From positions 1-32,041 of the forward strand of contig CAMCNU010000014.1 in assembly GCA_945876385.1 (NCBI GenBank): a stretch of 32,041 nt of DNA, in the 5' to 3' direction. Position 1 is the first letter of the stretch; each line of letters starts with the position of its first letter. A program made the position numbers and the translations under genes. The notes under the pieces were generated by a model. It had not been told where the DNA came from. It saw only the letters and a program-made list of their open reading frames with translations, and searched no databases. Origin of the DNA: an uncultured Veillonellaceae bacterium. GTDB taxonomy: Bacteria; Bacillota; Negativicutes; Veillonellales; Negativicoccaceae. Below, piece by piece: positions 15,646 to 31,807 of the stretch.

Positions 15646-16833
<1,188 letters not shown>

Positions 16834-16846
16834 GAGATAGAGTAAC

Positions 16847-16883
16847 AAAAACACACACTTGCATGAGCAAGTGTGTGTTTTTG
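16847..16883 (+). terminator. Strong intrinsic terminator after tuf
   Basis: Perfect 16-bp inverted repeat (16847-16862 with 16867-16882) with loop ATGA; the arms are A-rich and T-rich at their outer ends, so it may work in both directions. Confidence 0.93.
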
Positions 16884-16968
16884 TGTGCGGATATATCGTG
16901 TTATGAGTCCGGTTTGCCCAAAATCACTATTCGTTGGGTTGATTTCGGGCGATACTGATGATGACGCA

Positions 16969-16996
16969 CTGACAATACATTTTAATTTGATATAAT
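16969..16996 (+). promoter_or_regulatory. Promoter of the restriction-modification operon
   Basis: CTGACA (16969-16974), 16-bp spacer, TATAAT (16991-16996). The predicted transcript starts near 17003, only about 25 bases before the chosen start codon. Confidence 0.65.
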
Positions 16997-17028
16997 AAAG
17001 ATATACTATCATGAGTGAGGAGCAATGC

Positions 17029-17892
17029 ATGGAGCAACAGGAAACCATTATTAAGTCAAAACGCCGCGTCAAGAAACACGGGGAAGTCTTTACCCCGCGC
17101 AGGATTGTGCGACAAATGCTTGATGCGCCGGAATGGGACGGTGCGCTCATGGACAATACCAAACGATTGCTCGAGCCGTCAGCGGGAGAGGGAAATTTTT
17201 TGGTAGAAATACTGAAAGACCGATTGGACAAGATTCGCATCGCCTGCGGTGACAATGTGACCAAGTATGAAAACCAGGCACTGCTGGCACTCAGCACGAT
17301 GTACGGCATTGAGCTTTTGGAAGATAATGCGCAAAAATGCGTCTTGAATGTGTACCATGCGTTTTATCAGGACTATGCCGACTGGGTGGCGCATCAAAAC
17401 CGGCAGCTGTCTATCACGACGCAACTCGCAAGCACGAAGGCGGCAGGTGACCCTTCGGAGACGGAAGGGGGACGGTTGCGGCGGCGCAAGTGGTACTGCC
17501 GGAAAAAAATCATTGACAGTGCGATGACGATTGTGGCCGCCAATATCATGCAAGGGGATTTTTTGACAGGGCGACGTGCCGACGGCACACCGCTGCTATT
17601 GACCGAGTGGCGTGTGGCGGGAGACAGCACACGCACGACCGTCTATGTCATTCCGACGGAATGGACATGGGACGAATGGGAACAGGATGCGGATGTACCG
17701 GCAGGGAGGGTATATACCGGCAGGCGGATACGTCCCGCGCATTTACAGATGTCGTTGTTTGCCGAAGAAGAGGAAGAATCAACCATCAGTCGGCGATATA
17801 TCAAAACTGCGATTGAGAATGTATGTGACGAAGAACAAGAGGAGGAGTACGTACATGATGCGGACGGAGCAGGTACAGCGGACCCCGTATGA
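17029..17892 (+). CDS. N6-adenine methyltransferase-like protein of the restriction-modification operon
   Basis: Encodes 287 residues. The N-terminal part resembles N6-adenine DNA methyltransferases: KHGEVFTPRRIVRQMLD (about 16-32), SAM motif I LLEPSAGEGNFLVEIL (about 48-63), motif II-like YGIELLEDNAQK (about 92-103), and NIMQGDFL (about 171-178). The catalytic NPPY/DPPY motif is not visible. The rest is polar, with a Trp-rich TEWTWDEWEQ stretch and an acidic end. It overlaps the large nuclease-helicase-methylase gene by 38 nt and is surely co-expressed. It may supply SAM binding, regulate, or form a complex with that protein; this is inference. ATG 17029 has SD GAGGAG at 6 nt, while ATG 17011 has none. 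Confidence 0.75.
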   Translation: MEQQETIIKSKRRVKKHGEVFTPRRIVRQMLDAPEWDGALMDNTKRLLEPSAGEGNFLVEILKDRLDKIRIACGDNVTKYENQALLALSTMYGIELLEDNAQKCVLNVYHAFYQDYADWVAHQNRQLSITTQLASTKAAGDPSETEGGRLRRRKWYCRKKIIDSAMTIVAANIMQGDFLTGRRADGTPLLLTEWRVAGDSTRTTVYVIPTEWTWDEWEQDADVPAGRVYTGRRIRPAHLQMSLFAEEEEESTISRRYIKTAIENVCDEEQEEEYVHDADGAGTADPV

Positions 17893-20800
17893 ACCGTTAA
17901 AACGGAAACTATATGCCTATCGGGTGACCGACTCGAATATTCACGAGGGGCTATTCAAAATCGGCCATACCGACCGCAGTGTGGCCAAGAGGATTCACGA
18001 GCAAGTCGGTACAGCGGGATTGAATGCGGATTTGGTCCTGCAAGTCCCGGCTCATCATACGGACGGCCGCGGATTTACCGATAAAGATTTTCATCGCTTT
18101 TTGATTCGCAAAGGCATTCGTCAAGTCAATTTGAATAACTCGGCGGCGGAATGGTTTGCGTTTGATGACGACGTCACAAAACTCAAGGAATATCTGGATG
18201 AGTTTATCGTCCGTTCCCCCACGAAGGTACAGGGCACGGAAGAAGAACACAGCGGCTATGTATTGCGTGACGAACAAGAGGCCGCCGTGGCGAAGACCTT
18301 GCAGTACATGACGACGCACAGCGATGCCGAGTTTTTATGGAATGCCAAACCGCGGTTCGGCAAGACGCTCAGTTCCTATGACTTGGTGCGCCGGCTCAAG
18401 GCATACAAGCGCGAGCAGGGCGACATGACGGCGATGAACGTACTGATTGTCACGAATCGCCCGGCGATTGCCAACTCATGGTATGAGGATTTTGTGAAAT
18501 TTATCAGCTGGCGAGAGGAAGACTTGCGTTTTGTGTCCGAGACATCGGCGTTGGAGGGAACAGAAGCATTGACGCGAGACGCGTTTGTCGAGTTGGCGCA
18601 GAAGAATACGGCCAAGGTATATGGCTGTATCGCGTTTGTTTCCTTGCAAGATTTGAAAGGTGCACGGTTGGCCGGCGGCCAATATGACAAACTGCAATGG
18701 ATATGGGGACTGTCATGGAATCTCATGATTATTGACGAGTCGCACGAAGGGATTGCCACCGACAAGACGGAGAAGGCATTTGCGCATATCCGCAGAAACG
18801 CGACCTTGCACTTATCGGGCACCCCGTTCAAGGCATTGGCACGCGGGCAGTTTACCGAGGAGCAGATTTACAACTGGACCTACATGGACGAGCAGGAAAT
18901 GAAGGCGTCCTGGGAGCAGCGGGAAAAGGGGATTCCGACGCCCGTCAGCCCCTACGCGGACCTGCCGACCTTGCATATGTTTACCTATCGTATGGGAGAT
19001 GCCGTCGTCGAGAAACTGAAGAAAGGCACCAAAATCGGCGAAAAAAACGTAGACTATGCCTTTTATTTGAATGAGTTTTTTGCGACCGACAAAAAAGGAC
19101 GCTTTATCCATGAAGAGGATGTCCGGCAGTTTTTGGACAACTTGCATCAGAGGCACTATCCGTTTTCCGCCGGCAAGCATCGTGACCAACTGGCGCATAC
19201 GTTTTGGCTGTTGCAGCGGGTCGATTCCGCCAAAGCATTGGCCAAAATGCTGCGCGAGCATCCGTTCTTTCGTGATTACTATGTCGTGATTGCCGCCGGT
19301 GACGGACAGGACTTGCGGGCGGACAATCGTGAAGGGGAAGTCGGCCGCTGGGACGGCTGGAGCGAGCCGGCACTTGACCGCGTACGGCGTGCGATTGCCG
19401 ATCATGACAAGACCATTACCCTGTCGGTCGGCCAACTGACGACCGGCGTGACCGTGCCGGAATGGACAGCCGTCCTGATGCTCAGCGACATCGAATCGCC
19501 GGAACGCTACTTCCAAGCGGCCTTCCGTGCCCAAAATCCGTACCGGTATTTTGACGAGGCGACCGATACCGTCTATAAGAAGGAACGCGCCTATGTATTT
19601 GACTTTGCACCGGAGCGTACCCTGCGACTGGTCGAGACGATGGCGACGAAACTCATCAGCGGCGCCGATACCGTCGCGACAGCCGAGCGCAAAGAGTACA
19701 TCCGTCGCCTGCTGAACTATTTCCCCGTCATCGGTGAAGATGAAGACGGTGAGCTGGGCGAATTCAGCGTCGAGGATGTCATGACCGTACCGCTCCGCAA
19801 CATCGCGCGCAATGTCGTCGAAAGAGGGTTTTTGTCGAACGAGCTGTTTACCGATATCGACCGCGTCATCGGTGCGCCGCAACGGATTCTGGATATTTTG
19901 AGCAAATTGTCGCCCGATAAAAATAATAAACGGCAAAAGCCTCGTACGTTGGAAGTGCCCGACAGCTTGGTAGAAGAGGCGACGGGAGCGGATATCGACA
20001 TCCCGCGGGACACGGAGCCAAGCCCGCTCGGCGAAGGTATCTGGCTCAATATCCCCGTAGATGACGATGCCGATGCGCAGCGGCGGTGGCTGGAGGCCGC
20101 GAAAAAACAGCAGCACGAGTACGTCAAAACCGTCGTGGATACGGTCGATCTGACGCCGGTACAGGAGAAATACGACCTGACGACCAAAGAAGTCGCACAC
20201 GTAAAACAACAAGTCGTCAAACGGGCGGCCAAGGCACTGGTCACGCATGACAAGGCGCATTGGCAGACCATCCGGGATATCACCGAGAGCTATGACCGCA
20301 AGTTTGATGAGATACAGACAGCGACCGCGCGGGAGCAAGCCGAGGCGAGCAAGCAAGCCGAGATAGACGCCGAACGGCAACGCTACGAAACGTCGCAGCA
20401 AGAAACGCTGGAGCGGGAGATTCGCAATGCCGACCGGATTGCCCAGGAGATGCGCCGCCGTGAAAAAGAAAAAGACGTGCGCGACCACTTGCGCGGATTC
20501 AGTTGTTCGATACCGATGTTTCTCATGGCGTACGGCGACCGCCGGACGACACTGGCCAACTATGACACCATCGTCGATCCGCAGGACTTTGCGGAAGTGA
20601 CCGGCATCACCGTCGAGGAATTTCGTCTCTTGCGAGACGGCTGTATCTATCTCGATGACGAGGGGCAGGAACAGCGCACGGGCGGGTATTTGAATGCGGA
20701 AGTCTTCAATGCATCCGTGCAACTCTTTTTGGACAAAAAAGAAGCCCTCGCCGACTATATGGCGGACGGGCAGACGGAGGATATCTTTGACTATATCCCC

Positions 20801-22219
20801 CAACAGCAAGAAAACCGCGTCTTTACGCCGCGCGCCGTCGTCGAGCGCATGCTGGACGAACTCGAACGCGAAAATCCGGGCATCTTCGGCCGCAAGACGC
20901 TGCGTTATGCCGACCTCTACGTCAAGAGCGGGATGTTTTTGGCGGGACTGGTCAAGCGCTTGTATCGCGGCCTGCGTCGTGCGATCCCCGATGAGCGCCG
21001 GCGGCTGGAGTGGATACTCACGCATCAGATTTATGCCGTCGCGCCGACCGAGACCTTGCGACGCGTTGCGGCCAACTACGTCTACGGCGCCTTTGATGAC
21101 CGCGCCAAGGCGCAAATCAAATGCTGCGACTTCAGCAAACTGTCCTATGCGGACGGCCCGTGGTCGGCGGCGATCAAAGCGGAATGGAGACATATCATGA
21201 AATTTGACATCATCATCGGCAACCCGCCGTATCAGGAAGTCACGGAAGACGGCAATCCGAACTTCGGTAAGCCGCTGTATCATCTCTTTATCGATAAAGC
21301 CTACGCGACGGCCGACAGAGTGATGCTGATTCATCCCTCGCGCTTCTTGTTTGATGCGGGAGCGACACCGAAAAAATGGAACAAAAAAATGCTGGCCGAT
21401 ACGCATCTCAAGGTCATCGACTACCGGCCGGATGCGGGGGAGGTATTCCCGAGTACGGATATCAAAGGCGGCGTCTGCATTACGTATCGTGACAAGTCGA
21501 AAACATTCGGAGCGGTGGGGGTGTTTGTTCCGTTTCCGGAGTTAGCATCAATACTGCGCAAAGTGCAGAAATTGCGGGAAAAGTCTATCTCAGAGTGTAT
21601 CTATGAACAAACCAAATTTGATTTGGAGGCTCTATTTAGTGATTTTCCTGAGTTTAGGACTTTGTTAGGGAGCAATGGAAAGGACCGGCGTTTGGAGACC
21701 AATATTTTCAATAGAATTCCGTTGTTCACGAAAACAAAGGAAGAAAAAGATGACTTGAAAATAGTCGGCTTAATAAATAACAGGAGGGTTTTTCGATATA
21801 TTTCTCCCCAATACATAGGAAAAGAGAACAACTTAAATAACTATAAAGTTATTATTCCTAAGTCTAATGGCTCCGGTGCATTGGGTGAGGTGATAAGTAC
21901 GCCGCTCATCGGGTCGCCGCTCATCGGGTATACCCGTAGTTTTATTAGTATTGGAAAGTTTGAGAAAAAAGAAGAAGCAGAAGCGGCGTTGAAATATGTC
22001 AAGACTAAATTTGCACGAGTATTGTTGGGGATATTAAAAGTGACACAGGATAATCCTCAAGATAGGTGGCAACATGTTCCTTTGCAAGATTTTACCAATC
22101 AGTCAGATATCGATTGGACGCAGTCGGTAGCGGATATCGACCGGCAGTTGTATCAGAAATATAAGCTGACCCAAAAAGAGATTCGTTTTATTGAAGAAAA
22201 AGTCACTCCTATGGAATAG
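17855..22219 (+). CDS. Fused restriction-modification protein: GIY-YIG nuclease, SF2 helicase, Eco57I-like methylase
   Basis: Encodes 1454 residues. Residues 18-105 fit a T5orf172/MUG113 GIY-YIG nuclease: LYAYRV, GLFKIGHT, R46 and E99 in AAEWF. A superfamily 2 helicase follows: Walker A-like NAKPRFGKT (163-171), DESH (294-297), SGTP (321-324) and motif VI QAAFRAQNPYR (554-564). A charged coiled coil spans about 822-875. The methylase part has VFTPRAVVERML (989-1000), an unusual motif I region ADLYVKSGMFLAGL (1019-1032) and catalytic NPPY (1123-1126). The rest (about 1230-1412) is probably the target-recognition domain and is much more AT-rich. ATG 17855 has SD GGAGGAG at 7 nt. The layout recalls single-chain type ISP enzymes, but with a GIY-YIG instead of an Mrr-type nuclease. 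Recognition sequence unknown. Confidence 0.85.
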   Translation: MMRTEQVQRTPYEPLKRKLYAYRVTDSNIHEGLFKIGHTDRSVAKRIHEQVGTAGLNADLVLQVPAHHTDGRGFTDKDFHRFLIRKGIRQVNLNNSAAEWFAFDDDVTKLKEYLDEFIVRSPTKVQGTEEEHSGYVLRDEQEAAVAKTLQYMTTHSDAEFLWNAKPRFGKTLSSYDLVRRLKAYKREQGDMTAMNVLIVTNRPAIANSWYEDFVKFISWREEDLRFVSETSALEGTEALTRDAFVELAQKNTAKVYGCIAFVSLQDLKGARLAGGQYDKLQWIWGLSWNLMIIDESHEGIATDKTEKAFAHIRRNATLHLSGTPFKALARGQFTEEQIYNWTYMDEQEMKASWEQREKGIPTPVSPYADLPTLHMFTYRMGDAVVEKLKKGTKIGEKNVDYAFYLNEFFATDKKGRFIHEEDVRQFLDNLHQRHYPFSAGKHRDQLAHTFWLLQRVDSAKALAKMLREHPFFRDYYVVIAAGDGQDLRADNREGEVGRWDGWSEPALDRVRRAIADHDKTITLSVGQLTTGVTVPEWTAVLMLSDIESPERYFQAAFRAQNPYRYFDEATDTVYKKERAYVFDFAPERTLRLVETMATKLISGADTVATAERKEYIRRLLNYFPVIGEDEDGELGEFSVEDVMTVPLRNIARNVVERGFLSNELFTDIDRVIGAPQRILDILSKLSPDKNNKRQKPRTLEVPDSLVEEATGADIDIPRDTEPSPLGEGIWLNIPVDDDADAQRRWLEAAKKQQHEYVKTVVDTVDLTPVQEKYDLTTKEVAHVKQQVVKRAAKALVTHDKAHWQTIRDITESYDRKFDEIQTATAREQAEASKQAEIDAERQRYETSQQETLEREIRNADRIAQEMRRREKEKDVRDHLRGFSCSIPMFLMAYGDRRTTLANYDTIVDPQDFAEVTGITVEEFRLLRDGCIYLDDEGQEQRTGGYLNAEVFNASVQLFLDKKEALADYMADGQTEDIFDYIPQQQENRVFTPRAVVERMLDELERENPGIFGRKTLRYADLYVKSGMFLAGLVKRLYRGLRRAIPDERRRLEWILTHQIYAVAPTETLRRVAANYVYGAFDDRAKAQIKCCDFSKLSYADGPWSAAIKAEWRHIMKFDIIIGNPPYQEVTEDGNPNFGKPLYHLFIDKAYATADRVMLIHPSRFLFDAGATPKKWNKKMLADTHLKVIDYRPDAGEVFPSTDIKGGVCITYRDKSKTFGAVGVFVPFPELASILRKVQKLREKSISECIYEQTKFDLEALFSDFPEFRTLLGSNGKDRRLETNIFNRIPLFTKTKEEKDDLKIVGLINNRRVFRYISPQYIGKENNLNNYKVIIPKSNGSGALGEVISTPLIGSPLIGYTRSFISIGKFEKKEEAEAALKYVKTKFARVLLGILKVTQDNPQDRWQHVPLQDFTNQSDIDWTQSVADIDRQLYQKYKLTQKEIRFIEEKVTPME
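21542..22091 (+). other. AT-rich segment encoding the presumed target-recognition domain
   Basis: Within the large restriction-modification gene, base composition drops sharply. By hand count, line 21601-21660 is 35% GC and 21781-21840 is 33%, against 55% for 20881-20940. Codons such as AGG, AGA, ATA and TTA become frequent. The composition recovers in the last ~40 codons. This fits replacement of the specificity segment by recombination. Confidence 0.7.
21901..21929 (+). repeat. 15-bp in-frame tandem duplication
   Basis: GCCGCTCATCGGGT occurs at 21901-21914 and again at 21916-21929. It encodes PLIGS-PLIGY in the target-recognition region and stays in frame. It is GC-rich inside an AT-rich block. 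Confidence 0.85.
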
Positions 22220-22298
22220 GCGGACAGGCGCAACGCGCCGATTCCGCCGTCCGACGATGTGAGTGAGCCGCCCCGCTTGCCCATGCAAGCGGGGCATT
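22219..22298 (+). terminator. Two hairpins ending the restriction-modification transcript
   Basis: The first (22219-22248) overlaps the stop codon: outer GGCGGA/TCCGCC and inner GGCGC/GCGCC with loop AAC. The second (22270-22295) is an 11-bp stem, GCCCCGCTTGC with GCAAGCGGGGC, loop CCAT, followed only by ATTTG. Termination is likely but the T-run is weak. Confidence 0.6.
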
Positions 22299-22311
22299 TG
22301 TGTGGGCGGAT

Positions 22312-22340
22312 TTGCGCGGGCGCGGGGGAGGTTGTACAAT
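22312..22340 (+). promoter_or_regulatory. Promoter of the HAD-racemase pair
   Basis: TTGCGC (22312-22317), 17-bp spacer, TACAAT (22335-22340). Confidence 0.5.
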
Positions 22341-22373
22341 AATGGGGAATGAATACAAGGCAAAGGAGTCATG

Positions 22374-23330
22374 ATGGCAAATATCATTGCGGTGATTTGG
22401 GATTTTGACAAGACGTTGATTCGCGGGAATATGCAGGATCCGATTTTTCGGCATTACGGCGTGGATGCGGCGGCGTTTTGGGATGAGGTCAATGCGATGC
22501 CGGCGCGAATTTGGGCGACGCAGCAGGTACGGGTCAATCCGGATACGGTGTACCTGAATCGGTTTTTGCGCGAGACGGGGGCGGACGGTCTTTTCCCCGG
22601 ACTGAATAATGCGATGCTCCGCGAGTTCGGCAAGGAGCAGGAGTGGTATCCGGGGGTGCCGGCGCTCTTTCAGCGGCTGGCGACGTTGCACGAGGGGCGC
22701 AGTGATTGGGAGGAGTACGGCATCCGCGTGGAGAATTATATCGTCAGTACGGGGTTTGCGGAGTCGGTGCGCGGTTCGGAGCTGGCGGCGTATACGCGGG
22801 AAATCTGGGGCTGTGAGCTGATTGAGTGCGAGACGGAGCCGCGGGTGCTGGCGGAAATCGGCTATACGATTGACAATACGACGAAGACGCGGGCGATTTT
22901 TGAGATTAATAAAGGGATTCGCGAGCTCAATCGCGACGGCGAAGCGGTGAATGTGAATACGAAGATAGCCGAGTCGTCACGGCGGGTGCGGCGGGAGAAT
23001 ATGATTTACGTCGCGGACGGGCCGAGCGATGTGCCGGCGTTTTCGGTGGTGCGCGCGGGCGGCGGTCATACGATGGCGGTATACCCGAAGGGGGATATCG
23101 CGGCGCTGCGGCAGGTGAACGGTCTCTTGGTCGATGAGCGGGTCGATGTGATTGCGGAGGCGGATTATCGTGAGGACGCGACGGCGACGATGTGGCTGCT
23201 TGCGACGATTGAGGATCGGGCGCAGGCGATGATGGCGGAGGAGCGGTCACGCATTCGCGCGGGCATCGGTTCGGCGCCGCGGCATTTACGGGAGAAAGAG
23301 GCGACGATCAATGACACAGGCAAACGGTAA
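22374..23330 (+). CDS. HAD-superfamily hydrolase
   Basis: Encodes 318 residues. HAD motif I is DFDKTL (10-15), with the nucleophile D10 and general acid D12. Motif II is the Thr/Ser in IVSTG, and the late acidic motif is ADGPSDVPAF, typical of phosphatases of the phosphoserine phosphatase-like branch. A long C1 cap lies between motifs I and II. No signal peptide or membrane segment is seen, so it is a cytoplasmic phosphatase of unknown substrate. ATG 22374 has SD AAGGAG at 5 nt; ATG 22371 would leave only 2 nt. It overlaps the following racemase-family gene by 20 nt, implying a joint transcript and possibly a joint pathway. Confidence 0.82.
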   Translation: MANIIAVIWDFDKTLIRGNMQDPIFRHYGVDAAAFWDEVNAMPARIWATQQVRVNPDTVYLNRFLRETGADGLFPGLNNAMLREFGKEQEWYPGVPALFQRLATLHEGRSDWEEYGIRVENYIVSTGFAESVRGSELAAYTREIWGCELIECETEPRVLAEIGYTIDNTTKTRAIFEINKGIRELNRDGEAVNVNTKIAESSRRVRRENMIYVADGPSDVPAFSVVRAGGGHTMAVYPKGDIAALRQVNGLLVDERVDVIAEADYREDATATMWLLATIEDRAQAMMAEERSRIRAGIGSAPRHLREKEATINDTGKR

Positions 23331-25845: not shown

Positions 25846-28713
25846 ATGAATACAAAATTCTTAACGATGTTAATCGGATTGGCGGTTGTAGGGGCGAGCG
25901 TGAGCAATGCTGCCGACGTAGAAAATACGGACACGAAAGTGCCTTATGTGGGAGTCAAAGCAGGCACCGAAAAGATGCAGAACTACAACGGTGACGGGGC
26001 CAAAGCGCAGGGCGCCATCGCAGTCGGGGAAGATGTGGAGGCGCTGACGGAATATTCCATTGCTATAGGCAAAAATATCAAAGCAAAAGGCGGAAAACTC
26101 GAAGGATATAATACGCATTATTATCCCGCTATCGGGATTGGCCTGAAAGTGGAAGCGGAAGGAAACGATGCAATTGCTATCGGCCGGGATGTTCGAGCGC
26201 AAGGCAGGGACGCTGTTGCCTTCGGCCGTAATGCGATGGCGGAAGGTGAGATGACATTGGCTATCGGCTTTAACGCCAGTGCTAAACTCGCCAAAAAACC
26301 GAATGCCGGACCGGAGTATAAGATGGCGACAGCAGTCGGACCGTATGCAAAGGCAATGGCGCCAAGCTCCAGCGCATTCGGCGGTCACGCCAGCGTGTAT
26401 GAGCAGTTTGCAACAGCGGTTGGCGATTTTGCCAGTGTTTATGGGGTGAGCGGCATTGCCATCGGCAATCAAGCAAAGGCAGGTATGAATAGTAACAAGG
26501 CGTTTGCCTCCGGCATTGCAATCGGTGAGGAGTCAAAATCCGAAGCCAACCAGGCGATTGCCATCGGGAAAAAGGCTTGGTCGCAAGCTACCGGCAGTAT
26601 CGCATTGGGAGAAAATTCGGAAACACAAAATCAATACACCGCCACGAAGGCTCTGTTTAGCGGTACAGACAACAACGATAATCAAGTCGGCGTAGTGAGC
26701 GTCGGCCGAGCTAAGCGAGGGTATTCTATCGAAGCGGTCAACCGACGAATTACGCATGTCGCAGGGGGTGTCGATGACAACGATGCTGTCAATATCGCTC
26801 AATTGAAAACGATATCCGAGGCGATTGGTTACACGACAGACCAAACTACAGGGAAAATCACCAACAACGGTACCCAAACTGTATTGGCGCGGCTTGACAA
26901 ATTAGAAAAGAATTCGAGCGGTGATGCTTCAACGGGTGGTACTGCAACCGGCGGCGGTGTCCATTATATCGCCTTCGGCGGTGATGAGAATACAGCCGAT
27001 GCCAACTATAATAACGACGGTGCCGCAGGTAAAGGCAGTATCGCTATCGGCCGTGCGGCGCACAGTGAATATGACGGCTCGGTCGCAATCGGAGACGAGG
27101 CAATCGGCAATGGATATGATGGTGGCGGTATAAGTCATTATGCCGGTACGTCAATTGCTATCGGCAAAAAAGCTAAGGCCACCGGCGGTGCGGTGGTCAT
27201 CGGTGAGAATGCGGCCGGTATTGCGCTCGGTGATTTGGCGCTGGGGCGTGGTGCCAAAGCCGAGGGCACGACCAAAATGACGGGCGGAAAAAACTTCGGT
27301 GCGGCTATTGCAATCGGTAACCACAGTAAGGCACAAAAGGTCGGTGCGGTTGCGTTGGGCTTGCGAACGAAAGCGACGAACAAGTATGCCATCGCCATCG
27401 GCGGTGACGGTACGACAGAGGCTAAAGGGGAAGAGTCATTGGCCGTCGGTAATGCGACCAAAGCGGAAGGGAAAAATTCGATGGCCATCGGTACATCGGC
27501 ATGGATTAAAGGAGAGGACAGCATCGGTATCGGGCATAATTCCAAGGCGGATTCTCGCGAGAGTGTGGCGATTGGCCGAGGTGCGACGGTTAAAGTCATG
27601 AACAGCGTAGCCATCGGGGCCGGTTCGTATGCGGAAGGACGATTGCAGGATACAGTTGCATTGTTCAGCGGTAGTAAACAGACAGATACCAAGAGTGGTA
27701 TCGTGTCTTTCGGTTATCAAAATCGTGAACGCCGACTGACGAATGTCGCCGGCGGTGTGAATCCGACAGATGCGGCAAACATTGCGCAATTGCAAGCATT
27801 GTCAACGCACATCGGTTATACGACGGACGCAGCGACAGGGAAAATCAATAACGCCGGCACTAAAACTATCCTGGCACGGCTTGACGCATTGGAAGAGAAT
27901 GTCTCGTCGGCACCGCAGCCTCAACCTCAACCTCAACCTCAATTGCAGTTGGCGGCGGGGGACGGTATTGCGTTGACGGAAAAAGACGGCAAGACGACTA
28001 TCGGACTGAATGCCGATACGCAGCAGAAGATCGCTAATGCCGGGCCGGCAATCAATCAGCAGACGGAGCTGGACGTCAAATCCGTGAAAGCGACAGCATT
28101 CAGTGTCGGGGATAAAGTGTATATTGATGCGGACGGATTACACGCGGGTGACCAAAAAATTGTCAAAGTAAAAGCCGGTACAGAAGATACGGATGCGGTG
28201 AATTTCGGTCAATTGAAAGTGTTGGACGGAAAAGTTGCCGCCGCGGAAAAACAGCTTACCGACATGTCGGCTACAGTCACACAGGCAAGTCGCAAAGCAG
28301 ATCAAGCATTGCGGGAAGCAATGGAGGTTCGTGATGAAAGTCGCGGAGGAGTGGCACTTAGTACTGCATTGGCCGCGTTGAAACCGGTGTCGTTTGACGG
28401 TACGAACCGTAGCCAAATCATGGCTGGAGTCGGTCATTACCGTAGTCATACAGCCGTAGCGTTAGGGGTTGCTTATTATGCGAATGCGCATACGATGTAT
28501 CATGTCGGTGCATCCTATGCTGATGGGGCAGATACGGCCATCAATGCCGGGGTGACGTGGAGTTTCGGTTCGGGCGGCGATGGGCAGGTAGTGCCGAAAA
28601 ACAAATCGTGGGAACAGATGCAACAGCAGATGGATACATTGCAACAGGAAAATGAACAGATGAAAGCACAGTTGCAAGAAATGTGGCGCTTGTTGAAACA
28701 CGGCAATAACTAA
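25846..28713 (+). CDS. Trimeric autotransporter adhesin (YadA-like)
   Basis: Encodes 955 residues. A Sec signal peptide (1 to about 22, cut near SNA-A) is followed by head 1 (about 50-285), built of repeats like SIAIGKNIKAKG. A neck follows (about 296-324, ITHVAGGVDDNDAVNIAQL), then a second head (about 370-620) and neck (about 627-654), and a (PQ)5 linker (690-699). The stalk has a third neck-like motif (AGTEDTDAVNFGQL), and the YadA C-terminal anchor is at about 834-907, ending GVTWSFG. Such proteins trimerise, form a 12-strand barrel in the outer membrane and mediate adhesion. Unusually, a further 48 residues with a coiled coil (about 920-951) follow the barrel. ATG 25846 has SD GGGAGAGGTG. 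Confidence 0.93.
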   Translation: MNTKFLTMLIGLAVVGASVSNAADVENTDTKVPYVGVKAGTEKMQNYNGDGAKAQGAIAVGEDVEALTEYSIAIGKNIKAKGGKLEGYNTHYYPAIGIGLKVEAEGNDAIAIGRDVRAQGRDAVAFGRNAMAEGEMTLAIGFNASAKLAKKPNAGPEYKMATAVGPYAKAMAPSSSAFGGHASVYEQFATAVGDFASVYGVSGIAIGNQAKAGMNSNKAFASGIAIGEESKSEANQAIAIGKKAWSQATGSIALGENSETQNQYTATKALFSGTDNNDNQVGVVSVGRAKRGYSIEAVNRRITHVAGGVDDNDAVNIAQLKTISEAIGYTTDQTTGKITNNGTQTVLARLDKLEKNSSGDASTGGTATGGGVHYIAFGGDENTADANYNNDGAAGKGSIAIGRAAHSEYDGSVAIGDEAIGNGYDGGGISHYAGTSIAIGKKAKATGGAVVIGENAAGIALGDLALGRGAKAEGTTKMTGGKNFGAAIAIGNHSKAQKVGAVALGLRTKATNKYAIAIGGDGTTEAKGEESLAVGNATKAEGKNSMAIGTSAWIKGEDSIGIGHNSKADSRESVAIGRGATVKVMNSVAIGAGSYAEGRLQDTVALFSGSKQTDTKSGIVSFGYQNRERRLTNVAGGVNPTDAANIAQLQALSTHIGYTTDAATGKINNAGTKTILARLDALEENVSSAPQPQPQPQPQLQLAAGDGIALTEKDGKTTIGLNADTQQKIANAGPAINQQTELDVKSVKATAFSVGDKVYIDADGLHAGDQKIVKVKAGTEDTDAVNFGQLKVLDGKVAAAEKQLTDMSATVTQASRKADQALREAMEVRDESRGGVALSTALAALKPVSFDGTNRSQIMAGVGHYRSHTAVALGVAYYANAHTMYHVGASYADGADTAINAGVTWSFGSGGDGQVVPKNKSWEQMQQQMDTLQQENEQMKAQLQEMWRLLKHGNN
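27919..27942 (+). repeat. Hexanucleotide repeat (CCTCAA)4
   Basis: Four perfect CCTCAA units encode the Pro-Gln linker of the adhesin. Copy-number change would lengthen or shorten the linker in frame. Confidence 0.9.
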
Positions 28714-28801: not shown

Positions 28802-30661
28802 ATGAAACAGGGAGTATTGGCGGCACTGGTGGGGGCGGCACTGCTGGCGGGCGGTTCGGCTCAGGCGGCGGTGCAGCTTGACCCGATCGTGGTCACGGCG
28901 ACACGGACGGAGATGGCGATGTCGGAGGTACCGGCAAATGTGGCGGTCGTCACGGCACAGCAGATCGAGCAGCGCAACTACACGGATGTGATGTCGGCGT
29001 TGCGGGATGTCCCGGGGGTCGAAATCCGTGAATACGGAAACGGTGTCGGCTATGAAGGGTCGAGTTCGCTCTATATCAACGGGGCGAAGGAAGTCGTCTG
29101 GATGGTGGACGGCGTGCGGATGAACACCCGCGGCACAAACTTGGCGTTGAGCAATTTGCGCGATATGAGCAATATCGAACGCATCGAAGTCGTCAAGAGT
29201 GTGACGGGCTCGCTCTACGGCTCGGATGCCAAGGGCGGCGTCATCAATATCATCACGAAAAAACCGCAGGACGGTCTGCAGGGGAATGCAGGCTTTATGG
29301 CGGGGAATTTCGGACGCCAGCAGTATACGGTAGGCGCGAGCGGCAAGTCCGGCAAGAACGGTCTGCGCATTCAGTACACGAAAGATAAAAAAGGTGACTT
29401 CAAGGACGGCGACGGCCTGACCATCCCGAGCAAACTCGACGGAGACACGCTGGGGCTCACCTTTACGCATGAACTCAACGACGAAAATGATTTGCAACTC
29501 AGCTTGGATAAATACTCTGCCGATGTGATGTATGCGGATGACAACACGAAATTGGCTAAACGCCGTTACGGCAAAATCGATACCCAAAGCGCGCGCTTGG
29601 TGTGGACGTACAAAGGAGAAAAATGGGATAACCATTTCTCCATGGCGTGGAACAAGTACAAGACCAATTACAACAATTGGCCGACCAACGTACGCACGAA
29701 ACTCATCAGCGACCAGCTGACCTGGCGGCCGAATGACAGCCACCGTGTCATTCTCGGTGCAAGCCACCAGAAAGATACCATCGTATCATCGGGGAATGCC
29801 ATCGTGAAAAATTCGGCGTACTTCATTCAGGACGAATGGAGCTTTGCGCCGCAGTGGACGCTGACGGCGGGGGTACGCTATGACGATTACGATCCGTTCG
29901 GGTCGAAAAACACCCCGCATGTGTCGCTCATGTACAAAGTCGATGACGGCATGGACATCTATGCCAGCTGGGGTAAGTTTTTCGTCGTACCGACGACATA
30001 CCAGTACAATACGAACCTGAACAAGACTTTGCCGCTCGAACCGGAATCCGGTCATGCTACCGAATTCGGCGTGAATTGGCAGCCGAACGACACGACGGCG
30101 GTGAATGCGCACGTGTACAAACGTTCGACGACGAATAAAATCGGCTGGGTGCCGACGCCGACAGAGGCAAACAAATGGGACGGACATTACAAAAACTATG
30201 ACGAAGAAAAAGCCAAAGGGGTGGATATCTCCGTCCGCAAGGTCTTGAGCGATACGCTCTCGGGACAGATCGGCTACGTCTATACGGATGTGGAAGCGAC
30301 ACCGTCGCGGACGCGCAATATCGACGGCTATATCCCGCGGCATGCGGTGACGGCGAGCCTGACCTATGCGCAGGAACGGTTTGACGCGACGCTCGGCGTA
30401 CGCGGCGTCATTAATCGTCCGGGACCGTCGGCAGACGATGTCATCAAGCCGTTCTTCCCGAAGAATACGTACTGGATTACGAATCTGAGTGCGAATTGGC
30501 ATGTCACGGATGATGTGACCGTCTACGGACAGGTGGACAACCTCTTTGACGTGATGTATGCGGAACAATCCAATGCGCGGACAAGTTGGTGGGGCACGGC
30601 CGGCGCCTGGTGGTCGCAACCGGGCCGCAGCATGCAAGTCGGCGTGAACGTACGGTTCTGA
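28802..30661 (+). CDS. TonB-dependent outer-membrane receptor, possibly for corrinoids
   Basis: Encodes 619 residues. The signal peptide is residues 1-22 (ending GGSAQA), followed by a TonB box-like segment DPIVVTATR (about 27-35). The plug domain (to about 150) has the motifs VPANVAVVTAQQIEQ, DVPGVEI, VWMVDGVRMN and GSLYGSDAKGGVINIITKK. A beta-barrel ends with aromatic-rich strands and C-terminal VRF, the outer-membrane insertion signal. Size and plug resemble the BtuB group. The next gene encodes CbiZ, which remodels corrinoids, so cobamide uptake is the best guess; haem or siderophore transport remains possible. No cobalamin riboswitch is visible upstream. SD AGAGGAA precedes ATG 28802. 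Confidence 0.88.
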   Translation: MKQGVLAALVGAALLAGGSAQAAVQLDPIVVTATRTEMAMSEVPANVAVVTAQQIEQRNYTDVMSALRDVPGVEIREYGNGVGYEGSSSLYINGAKEVVWMVDGVRMNTRGTNLALSNLRDMSNIERIEVVKSVTGSLYGSDAKGGVINIITKKPQDGLQGNAGFMAGNFGRQQYTVGASGKSGKNGLRIQYTKDKKGDFKDGDGLTIPSKLDGDTLGLTFTHELNDENDLQLSLDKYSADVMYADDNTKLAKRRYGKIDTQSARLVWTYKGEKWDNHFSMAWNKYKTNYNNWPTNVRTKLISDQLTWRPNDSHRVILGASHQKDTIVSSGNAIVKNSAYFIQDEWSFAPQWTLTAGVRYDDYDPFGSKNTPHVSLMYKVDDGMDIYASWGKFFVVPTTYQYNTNLNKTLPLEPESGHATEFGVNWQPNDTTAVNAHVYKRSTTNKIGWVPTPTEANKWDGHYKNYDEEKAKGVDISVRKVLSDTLSGQIGYVYTDVEATPSRTRNIDGYIPRHAVTASLTYAQERFDATLGVRGVINRPGPSADDVIKPFFPKNTYWITNLSANWHVTDDVTVYGQVDNLFDVMYAEQSNARTSWWGTAGAWWSQPGRSMQVGVNVRF

Positions 30662-30731: not shown

Positions 30732-30757
30732 GAAAGAAAATGCGTGAGGAGGACACG

Positions 30758-31807
30758 ATGGAATTGATGCGATGGGAGAACGGCGATGTATTGCACCGCT
30801 ATCAGAAGGCGTTGGTGCTGGTGCTCGGGGGGGCACGGCGGACGGTGTCGACATCGCCGCTGCATGGCGGTGTGCGCGAGGATATGCGCTATGTATTTAA
30901 TTACGATGCCAATCCGGGCGCGGGGATGGCGGCGAAGCTGGAGGCACCGACATATGAGGAGCATTTGATGCTGCTGGCGACGCGATTGGGGCTGGACCCG
31001 GCGGTGACGACGGGACTGTCGACGGCGGCGAACATGCAAAATGTCGCCTTGGCGACGGAGTCCTATGAGGCGCTTCACGTGACGGCTATCATCACGGGCG
31101 GCATCGAGGTGAACGGCGGCCGCGTGGGCGATCCGGCGACGTGGCATGTACCGCGGGAAAAGCCGCTGCAGGGGACAATCAATACGCTGGTGCATATCGA
31201 TGCGGATCTGCCCGCAGGGGTGCTGACGCGCGCCTTGGTGACGGCGACGGAGGCCAAGACGGCGGCCTTGCAGGAATTGATGGCCAACAGCAATTATTCG
31301 TACGGGATTGCGACGGGAAGCGGTACGGACGGCACGGTCATCATCAGTGACATGACGGCGCCGTATCGGTTGACGGATGCGGGCAAGCACAGCAAGCTGG
31401 GCGAGCTCATCGGTCGGGCGGTCATGCGGGCGACGAAGGCGGCACTGGCCAAGCAGTCGGGGTTGACGCCGGAGCGGATGCATGCGCTGGGTGAACGCTT
31501 GCGGCGGTATCGGATAACGGCGGATACGTTGTGGGAAGAATACCGCACGGCGGGCGGCACGGCAGAAAAGTACGATTTTATCGCGGCGTGGGAGCGAGCG
31601 GAGCATGGCGAGGCGTTCGTGCCGACGGTGCTGTGGATTCACACATTGGACGAATGGCAATGGGGCCTGCTGGCGGTAGATGATGTCCGCGCGGCATGGG
31701 CAGAGCTGGGCATGACGGCGGAGTTGCCGCAGGGTGACGACGTACGGGAGTGGCTGCTCACGTGGTGTCGGGAGCGGATTGTACGGCCGTTGGTGGCGGG
31801 CGAGTAA
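30758..31807 (+). CDS. cbiZ: Adenosylcobinamide amidohydrolase CbiZ
   Basis: Encodes 349 residues. CbiZ hydrolyses the amide between the corrin ring and the aminopropanol linker, giving adenosylcobyric acid, so that imported cobamides with a foreign lower ligand can be rebuilt. The family core is visible: LSTAANMQNVAL (about 85-96), VTAIITGGIEVNGGRVGDPA (about 108-127), GTINTLVHIDADLPAGVLTRALVTATEAKTAAL (about 138-170), and the TGSGTDG loop (about 186-192). The C-terminal ~130 residues are less clearly assigned. ATG 30758 has SD GAGGAGG at 5 nt; the in-frame ATG at 30740 has none. The upstream TonB receptor is a natural partner. A diverged copy of its 3' end lies at 31994. Confidence 0.85.
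   Translation: MELMRWENGDVLHRYQKALVLVLGGARRTVSTSPLHGGVREDMRYVFNYDANPGAGMAAKLEAPTYEEHLMLLATRLGLDPAVTTGLSTAANMQNVALATESYEALHVTAIITGGIEVNGGRVGDPATWHVPREKPLQGTINTLVHIDADLPAGVLTRALVTATEAKTAALQELMANSNYSYGIATGSGTDGTVIISDMTAPYRLTDAGKHSKLGELIGRAVMRATKAALAKQSGLTPERMHALGERLRRYRITADTLWEEYRTAGGTAEKYDFIAAWERAEHGEAFVPTVLWIHTLDEWQWGLLAVDDVRAAWAELGMTAELPQGDDVREWLLTWCRERIVRPLVAGE

Follow-up and report, generated by a model that had tools for sequence, protein, structure and literature searches.

Here, we describe a locus of two overlapping genes in a 32,041-nucleotide stretch of DNA from an uncultured Veillonellaceae bacterium (contig CAMCNU010000014.1 of assembly GCA_945876385.1; the whole stretch is referred to as the window), which likely encodes an ATP-dependent restriction-modification (R-M) system. 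Judged from its sequence, this system would combine a translocating nuclease, composed of a GIY-YIG domain and a superfamily 2 (SF2) helicase, with an N6-adenine methyltransferase that is assembled in trans from two polypeptides, N1 and C, of which C would be present in two forms.

The two open reading frames (ORFs) named in an initial annotation of this DNA were recovered with unchanged boundaries and overlap by 38 bp (Table 1). The small gene codes for N1 (protein P0001), which carries motifs for the binding of S-adenosylmethionine (SAM), and the large gene for a chain, termed R, with a nuclease, a helicase, a middle region, a second methyltransferase N-half (N2) and a C half, the latter consisting of the catalytic NPPY motif and a target-recognition domain (TRD). 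Throughout, the strength of a ribosome-binding site is given as the predicted pairing of the 16 nt preceding the start codon with the anti-Shine-Dalgarno (anti-SD) sequence.

The annotation had placed a GIY-YIG nuclease, an SF2 helicase and an Eco57I-like methylase in a single chain, and this is confirmed by Pfam searches and by conservation in the family. The large protein matches ResIII at residues 136-325 (E 9e-13), Eco57I at residues 1058-1197 (E 5e-18) and T5orf172 at residues 20-113 (E 0.0038, slightly under the gathering score), and among 23 aligned relatives, nine were matched by T5orf172 and five by MUG113. In about 176 non-identical relatives, residues Y20, K35 and G37 are conserved in 100%, W100 in 98% and H80 in 90% of the sequences, and R46 and E99, which had already been singled out as GIY-YIG residues, in 99% each. 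The residues expected for a GIY-YIG fold (a catalytic Y, Y/K-x-G, R and E) are hence present in the window protein and its relatives, and on these alignments the assignment is secure at the level of the family. The helicase motifs GKT, DExH, SGTP and QxxFR show 93-100% conservation at their key positions (182-185 relatives), and for NPPY the value is 98-100% (166 relatives). The motif conservation in nuclease, helicase and methylase is well past chance.

Table 1. Coordinates of the genes, domains and ribosome-binding sites of the locus in the window
Feature	Position	Strand	Details
Ribosome-binding site of the small gene, GAGGAG	17017..17022	+	from sequence; anti-SD duplex -8.5 kcal/mol for ATG 17029, versus just -0.9 kcal/mol for the upstream ATG 17011
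N1 (P0001), half-methyltransferase, 287 aa	17029..17892	+	motif X EVFTP, motif I EPSAGEGNFL, motif II YGIE, motif III NIMQGDFL; without NPPY
R, 1454-aa chain GIY-YIG - SF2 helicase - middle region - N2 - C, 167.7 kDa	17855..22219	+	ATG 17855; ribosome-binding site GGAGGAG, -12.0 kcal/mol
GIY-YIG (T5orf172-like) nuclease domain, residues 20-113 of R	17912..18193	+	Y20, K35-I-G37, R46, H80, E99
SF2 helicase, about residues 130-640 of R	18242..19774	+	KPRFGKT, DESH, SGTP, QAAFRAQNP
N2, second methyltransferase N-half, about residues 962-1085 of R	20738..21109	+	altered SAM pocket: DLYVKSG; motif II acid replaced by A
Candidate internal ribosome-binding site, GGAG	21186..21189	+	7 nt ahead of ATG 21197; anti-SD duplex -6.4 kcal/mol
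C half, NPPY and target recognition, residues 1115-1454 of R	21197..22219	+	probably also a separate 340-aa, 39.1-kDa product of the internal start

Methyltransferase halves and their gene layouts

The small gene had been described as a dedicated, methyltransferase-like partner of the large one. The first part of this description holds, as the gene accompanies nearly every relative that lies on a long enough contig; the protein is only half an enzyme, a point that had been missed together with the altered second N-half in the large chain and the probable internal start at 21197. In about 160 loci, N1 retains motif X (EVFTP), the E (98%) and first Gly (100%) of motif I, the acid of motif II (99%) and the N (100%) and D/N (99%) of motif III. 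When stand-alone N1 ORFs were inspected for an NPPY-like motif (motif IV), only one of 106 had one. N1 has no recognition domain either, and the remainder of the enzyme, C, is joined to it in 47 loci. By its motifs X, I, II and III, the small protein is the SAM-binding half of a methyltransferase and not a methyltransferase by itself. One might argue that P0001 is a complete, independent enzyme for the other strand, standing next to an ordinary type IIG or ISP-like enzyme, since plasmid copies are annotated as 'N-6 DNA methylase' and a PADLOC MTase_II model matches. With NPPY absent from 105 of 106 ORFs, no recognition domain and so many fusions of C to N1, we regard this as very improbable, and P0001 was rejected as a full methyltransferase.

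N2, by contrast with N1, has lost residues of the SAM pocket. Its first Gly is replaced by Lys in 95% of 117 R-type copies and 97% of 46 E-type copies, the latter from the N2-C clade, and the motif II acid is replaced by Ala in 94% of the R-type copies. At the GxG position of methyltransferases, K-[ST]-G is nearly invariant in the N2 of all layouts (in the window, residues 965-1100), and the solved enzyme DrdV has DPATGTG at the position of DLYMKSG in N2. Because K-[ST]-G is so well kept, N2 looks repurposed rather than decayed. A Lys at this position is expected to block or alter the SAM pocket. The motifs (X, I, II, III and IV) and TRD that gamma-class (Eco57I-like) N6-adenine methyltransferases combine in one fold are distributed over the locus, with NPPY and the TRD in C and intact SAM motifs only in N1. 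Stand-alone C genes (in L059, L062, L068, L069 and other loci) start about 7-12 residues ahead of NPPY; therefore, their products have no SAM-binding half of their own and need to be complemented. The N2-C proteins of L076 (4298-5857) and L079 (6334-7917) contain a CxxC insertion (HCIYCGI and RCIYCGI, respectively) between motif III and NPPY, which is possibly metal-binding.

Among genomes of its class, 56 of 252 contain relatives of the large chain, and among genomes drawn across its phylum 9 of 398 do; further relatives were found on 90 plasmid records and 71 viral contigs, and species genomes hold at least 591 sequence relatives. The family is spread over Bacillota, Actinomycetota, Bacteroidota, Spirochaetota, Pseudomonadota and other phyla and occurs on plasmids of Enterococcus, Staphylococcus and lactic acid bacteria. 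Many large-chain relatives end after residue 1085, and the counterpart of residues 1113-1453 is encoded by another gene. We therefore typed 192 loci by five modules, namely GIY, HEL, N1, N2 (the in-chain N-half) and C (NPPY and TRD). N1, N2 and C are divided between genes and joined to each other in at least eight different layouts; the underlying searches were ranked by similarity to the window, and the counts given below do not represent population frequencies. With slashes separating genes, the commonest layout is N1-C / GIY-HEL-N2 (47 loci), followed by N1 / N2-C / GIY-HEL (41), N1 / C / GIY-HEL-N2 (33) and the form seen in the window, N1 / GIY-HEL-N2-C (25, including a divergent subgroup in which N2 was inferred from an NSKTG motif). 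N1 / GIY-HEL-N2 / C was found in seven loci and a variant of it with N1 downstream in three; there are rarer layouts besides, among them a single chain, GIY-HEL-N2-N1-C, in L070. The single-chain architecture emphasised in the initial annotation is thus real in the window, but it is one of several arrangements and not a defining feature.

GIY, HEL, N1 and C are present together in 166 of the 192 loci, and most of the remaining loci meet contig ends. A complete locus nearly always has two N-halves together with a single C gene and a single helicase, and a separate N1 gene is nearly always present; 222 of 269 pairs of neighbouring module genes overlap or lie at most 30 bp apart. On a helicase tree of 153 rows (FastTree, midpoint root), the layouts require at least 27 changes, and when well-supported branches alone are considered, at least nine changes are needed for the N1-C fusion, seven for the three-gene form and six for the window form. 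Since the layouts have changed this often, the pieces must be able to function however they are joined. In a sister group (L262, L263 and L268-L271, on plasmids of Staphylococcus, Lactococcus and Lactobacillaceae), the C half and the internal start are kept and another N-terminal region replaces GIY-YIG; L269 has a separate gene resembling an Mrr-type nuclease. From these sequences, the nuclease seems to be exchangeable on a shared split-methyltransferase chassis.

A start signal at the C junction

Where a stand-alone C gene would begin, a Met is retained in 38 of 45 N1-C, 21 of 25 R-C and 38 of 39 N2-C fused genes. The junction codons of 100 fused genes are preceded by sites with a mean strength of -7.7 kcal/mol, as compared to -2.45 kcal/mol for 1205 internal Met codons elsewhere in these genes (p 4e-36 in a Mann-Whitney test; the genes are related, so that the observations are not fully independent), and close to the mean of -7.77 kcal/mol at the true starts of 35 stand-alone C genes. 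Outside the labelled Bacteroidota, 64 of 92 genes have their strongest site at the junction, where 9.7 would be expected. At junctions without an ATG, this codon is TTG or GTG and has a good SD, or else an ATG is located a few codons further upstream. When every in-frame start codon was scanned without bias, 81-87% of the genes had a strong site in the junction bin, as compared to a median of 4-5% for the other 10-aa bins, and all 11 plasmid genes that were retrieved after the hypothesis had been set have a start codon at the junction, with a site of -6.2 to -12.1 kcal/mol that ranks first or second in the gene.

Two further groups of genes inform on the nature of this signal. Eight fused genes from Bacteroidota have no SD at the junction (mean -0.12 kcal/mol) and retain the ATG, which is consistent with the few SD sequences that are used for translation initiation in this phylum. 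In the N2-C clade (the E layout, with one origin on the tree and a median identity of 49%), the SD occurs in varying frames and spacings and codes for different residues, for example PEEIFNM versus ELFGGDM; we therefore argue that selection acts on the nucleotide signal. SD-like sequences at domain borders have been proposed in general to slow ribosomes and aid folding, and a signal of this kind, or a relic of recent fusion, could account for the junction without any separate protein, all the more as stand-alone C genes with real starts exist from which fusions could have inherited it. But a pause requires no start codon, yet one is present as ATG, GTG or TTG; inertia would not preserve an SD in differing frames and spacings; and the Bacteroidota genes have kept the start codon without the SD. 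We thus consider a pause or relic to be quite unlikely, and in the window a free C half is probably translated from the internal start at 21197, as suggested by its sequence context.

Proposed assembly, structure models and genomic setting

We propose that N1 binds SAM and that the C half provides catalysis and, through its target-recognition domain, sequence specificity, N1 and C together forming the modifying enzyme. C would be supplied twice, as the tail of the large chain and as the free product of the internal start. N2, a retained N-half altered by the Lys in its SAM pocket, would not be SAM-competent and might serve to position the C half beside the helicase. At an unmodified target, the SF2 motor would fire and translocate, and the GIY-YIG domain would cut, probably once two motors meet, by analogy with type ISP enzymes. 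We infer that the system acts in defence by restricting phage or plasmid DNA. As nearly every layout would supply a free C half, N1 and N2 could both be paired, and it would no longer be puzzling that two N-halves go with a single C. More tentatively, we suggest that one gene could be read twice, in such a way that a SAM-competent modification arm, N1·C, and a restriction arm, nuclease-helicase-N2·C, share one catalytic and recognition polypeptide. If so, the specificities of marking and cutting can never diverge, and new specificities can arise by exchange of the C cassette alone.

Several observations weigh against this assembly. The internal site of the window itself is moderate in strength, being the third best of 24, and the single chain L070 has no C start. 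L026 (G128:C2), which is related to L070 and likewise has N2-N1-C in a single chain, instead carries a strong internal TTG site (-10.6 kcal/mol) precisely where N1 begins, so that the free product there would be N1-C. In addition, AlphaFold2 folds the N2-C part of the window chain in cis with high confidence into a complete methyltransferase (predicted local distance difference test, pLDDT, 89.7; predicted template modelling score, pTM, 0.84), and structure alone is silent on which N-half uses NPPY. In a model of the natural fusion L070, for which the alignment contained N1-C rows only, N1-C mostly reaches a pLDDT of 80-98 and N2, lacking an alignment, stays below 50. Both the N2-C and N1-C models match CamA, DrdV, LlaGI/LlaBIII, BrxX and MmeI with Z scores of about 17-20, with a CamA-like fold at about 20 and the window N2-C model at 18-19 against 5ffj and 4xqk (LlaGI/LlaBIII). 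At the sequence level, a phmmer search of the PDB with both window proteins gave no usable match, and with profiles DrdV was the sole match for N2-C and there was none for N1-C. According to the models, either N-half can complete the methyltransferase fold with C; the choice of N1 is suggested by the SAM motifs and not by the models.

It is conceivable that N2-C in cis is the working methyltransferase, in which case N1 would be a regulatory subunit that senses SAM, and no use would be made of the internal start. The two parts are contiguous and in canonical motif order, the whole-enzyme fold resembles CamA, DrdV and LlaGI, and the strongly conserved K-[ST]-G implies that N2 is functional in some way. 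Against this, neither the first Gly nor the ribose-binding acid is retained in N2, the commonest layout fuses C to N1 and another has a free C gene, and the conserved start codons and ribosome-binding sites at the junction would be left unexplained. We therefore think it unlikely and retain the pairing of N1 with C as the preferred reading.

A mirror-tree comparison of N1-C with N2-C pairing, which also speaks against our proposal, gave no sign of N1-C co-evolution (partial r -0.10). This is to be expected if C is an exchanged cassette, and the pairing gains no support from it. In 94 loci, distances to the helicase correlate for N2 (r 0.70) and GIY (r 0.69), weakly for the C core (0.35) and not for the TRD (0.01), whereas the distances of C core and TRD are correlated with each other (r 0.78). 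In L061, L092, L095 and L096, as set against L058, L060 and others, C halves about 25% identical to that of the window stand beside R-chain helicases about 50% identical to it, and such divergent C halves next to similar helicases indicate that specificity cassettes are swapped. It appears from these comparisons that C and its TRD are exchanged between systems as a unit, similar to HsdS, which is exchanged as a unit in type I systems.

In the window, all ORFs of the locus are intact and free of stops, and all catalytic residues and three ribosome-binding sites are present, which makes it improbable that the locus is a degraded or inactive R-M remnant. Certain relatives are broken, with the large chain of L082 (G413) split into two ORFs with stops between them and an in-frame TAG in the C part of L080 (G449), and the B. 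subtilis DnmA-YeeBC system has been reported to be inactive against phage (PMC9973331). The locus is flanked upstream by a tuf gene with five tRNAs and downstream by a gene of the HAD family. Its GC content is 0.48-0.57, as compared to up to 0.65 nearby, and within 16800-22500 it falls to 0.48-0.54 at the ends of the system. Because its GC content is lower than that of its surroundings, the locus at this tRNA/tuf site may be an acquired island, as its composition suggests. A comparison with members of the same family gave no clean empty site, the HAD homologues being about 30% identical and the tuf matches mostly contig-end fragments. Further downstream, the 1.5-Mb host genome encodes a 955-aa protein matching trimeric autotransporter adhesins of the EmaA/Ata/YadA type (25846-28713), whose gene is adjacent to those for a TonB-dependent receptor (28802-30661) and CbiZ (30740-31807).

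Should one gene indeed be read twice in this manner, it would represent a new assembly principle for R-M systems, hidden by annotation pipelines that overlook the internal start and enter each half as a methyltransferase of its own. If the proposed assembly is correct, members of the family are probably mis-annotated as lone 'N-6 DNA methylase' and 'type IIG' genes. Either gene, if cloned or assayed without the other, would then yield an inactive enzyme, and the same would hold if codon optimisation altered the internal start. The family would further offer a naturally split N6-adenine methyltransferase whose specificity half can be exchanged and, besides McrB, a clear and conserved internal translation start in an R-M system.

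Comparison with known systems

In our searches for papers on GIY-YIG/helicase/methylase systems, split adenine methyltransferases and internal starts in R-M genes, which did not extend to subscription papers and preprints, we found comparators only, and neither this assembly nor its internal start was described in the papers searched. We also looked for a close, characterised enzyme with the same two-gene layout and met none; homologues are numerous and annotated by domain only. The initial annotation had judged the combination to fall into no characterised class. This agrees with the lack of a characterised match, but the pieces are contained in PADLOC-DB and the activities have been published as DnmA-YeeB-YeeC (PMC9973331). 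The REBASE-style models of PADLOC-DB match the large chain (REase_MTase_IIG, PDLC03626), the GEAP subtype of N1 (MTase_II, PDLC03390) and the C half (MTase_II, PDLC03375), and thereby present three separate R-M proteins, with two of the models each covering just half a methyltransferase. Although PADLOC labels relatives as type IIG, this class was rejected for the locus, as an SF2 helicase with intact motifs is present; type IIG enzymes unite endonuclease and methyltransferase in one chain and are stimulated by SAM, but have no ATP-dependent motor.

The type ISP enzymes LlaGI and LlaBIII resemble the large chain in that a nuclease, an SF2 helicase, a gamma-class N6 methyltransferase and a TRD follow each other in the same order, and the helicase motifs that type ISP-like translocation would call for are found in the sequence of the window chain. 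In type ISP enzymes, a single chain contains an Mrr nuclease and one methyltransferase that is complete in itself (PMC4666363). The contrast with Mrr-type enzymes that had been drawn initially is borne out, residues 20-113 being GIY-YIG/T5orf172, and the window locus further differs by its obligatory N1 partner, the second, altered N-half and the probable internal start. With neither an Mrr nuclease nor a self-sufficient single-chain methyltransferase, the locus was not assigned to type ISP.

The same three activities are combined in the DnmA-YeeB-YeeC systems of B. subtilis and Vibrio crassostreae, which consist of an N6 methyltransferase, an SF2 helicase and a T5orf172 GIY-YIG nuclease, and the Vibrio system affects phage sensitivity (PMC9973331). 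There, a whole MmeI-like methyltransferase is contained in one protein, helicase and GIY-YIG are encoded by separate genes and no split is described (PMC9973331), whereas the window locus has a split methyltransferase and GIY-YIG at the N-terminus of the helicase; it is set apart from DnmA-YeeB-YeeC by this description.

Single aspects of the proposed assembly have precedents in other systems. McrB-S of McrBC is a second product of an R-M gene made from an in-frame internal start (PMC3874153), although McrB is an unrelated protein whose short form interferes with the long form. Fragment complementation is known for C5-methyltransferases (PMC5944983). Two unlike M subunits come together in one complex in the non-canonical type I enzyme PacII M1M2S (PMC9613975), which our models match with a Z score of 17. 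In PacII, each M is complete with its SAM site and S is a separate subunit, whereas in the window locus the methyltransferase is split into halves and C would join catalysis and specificity in one polypeptide.

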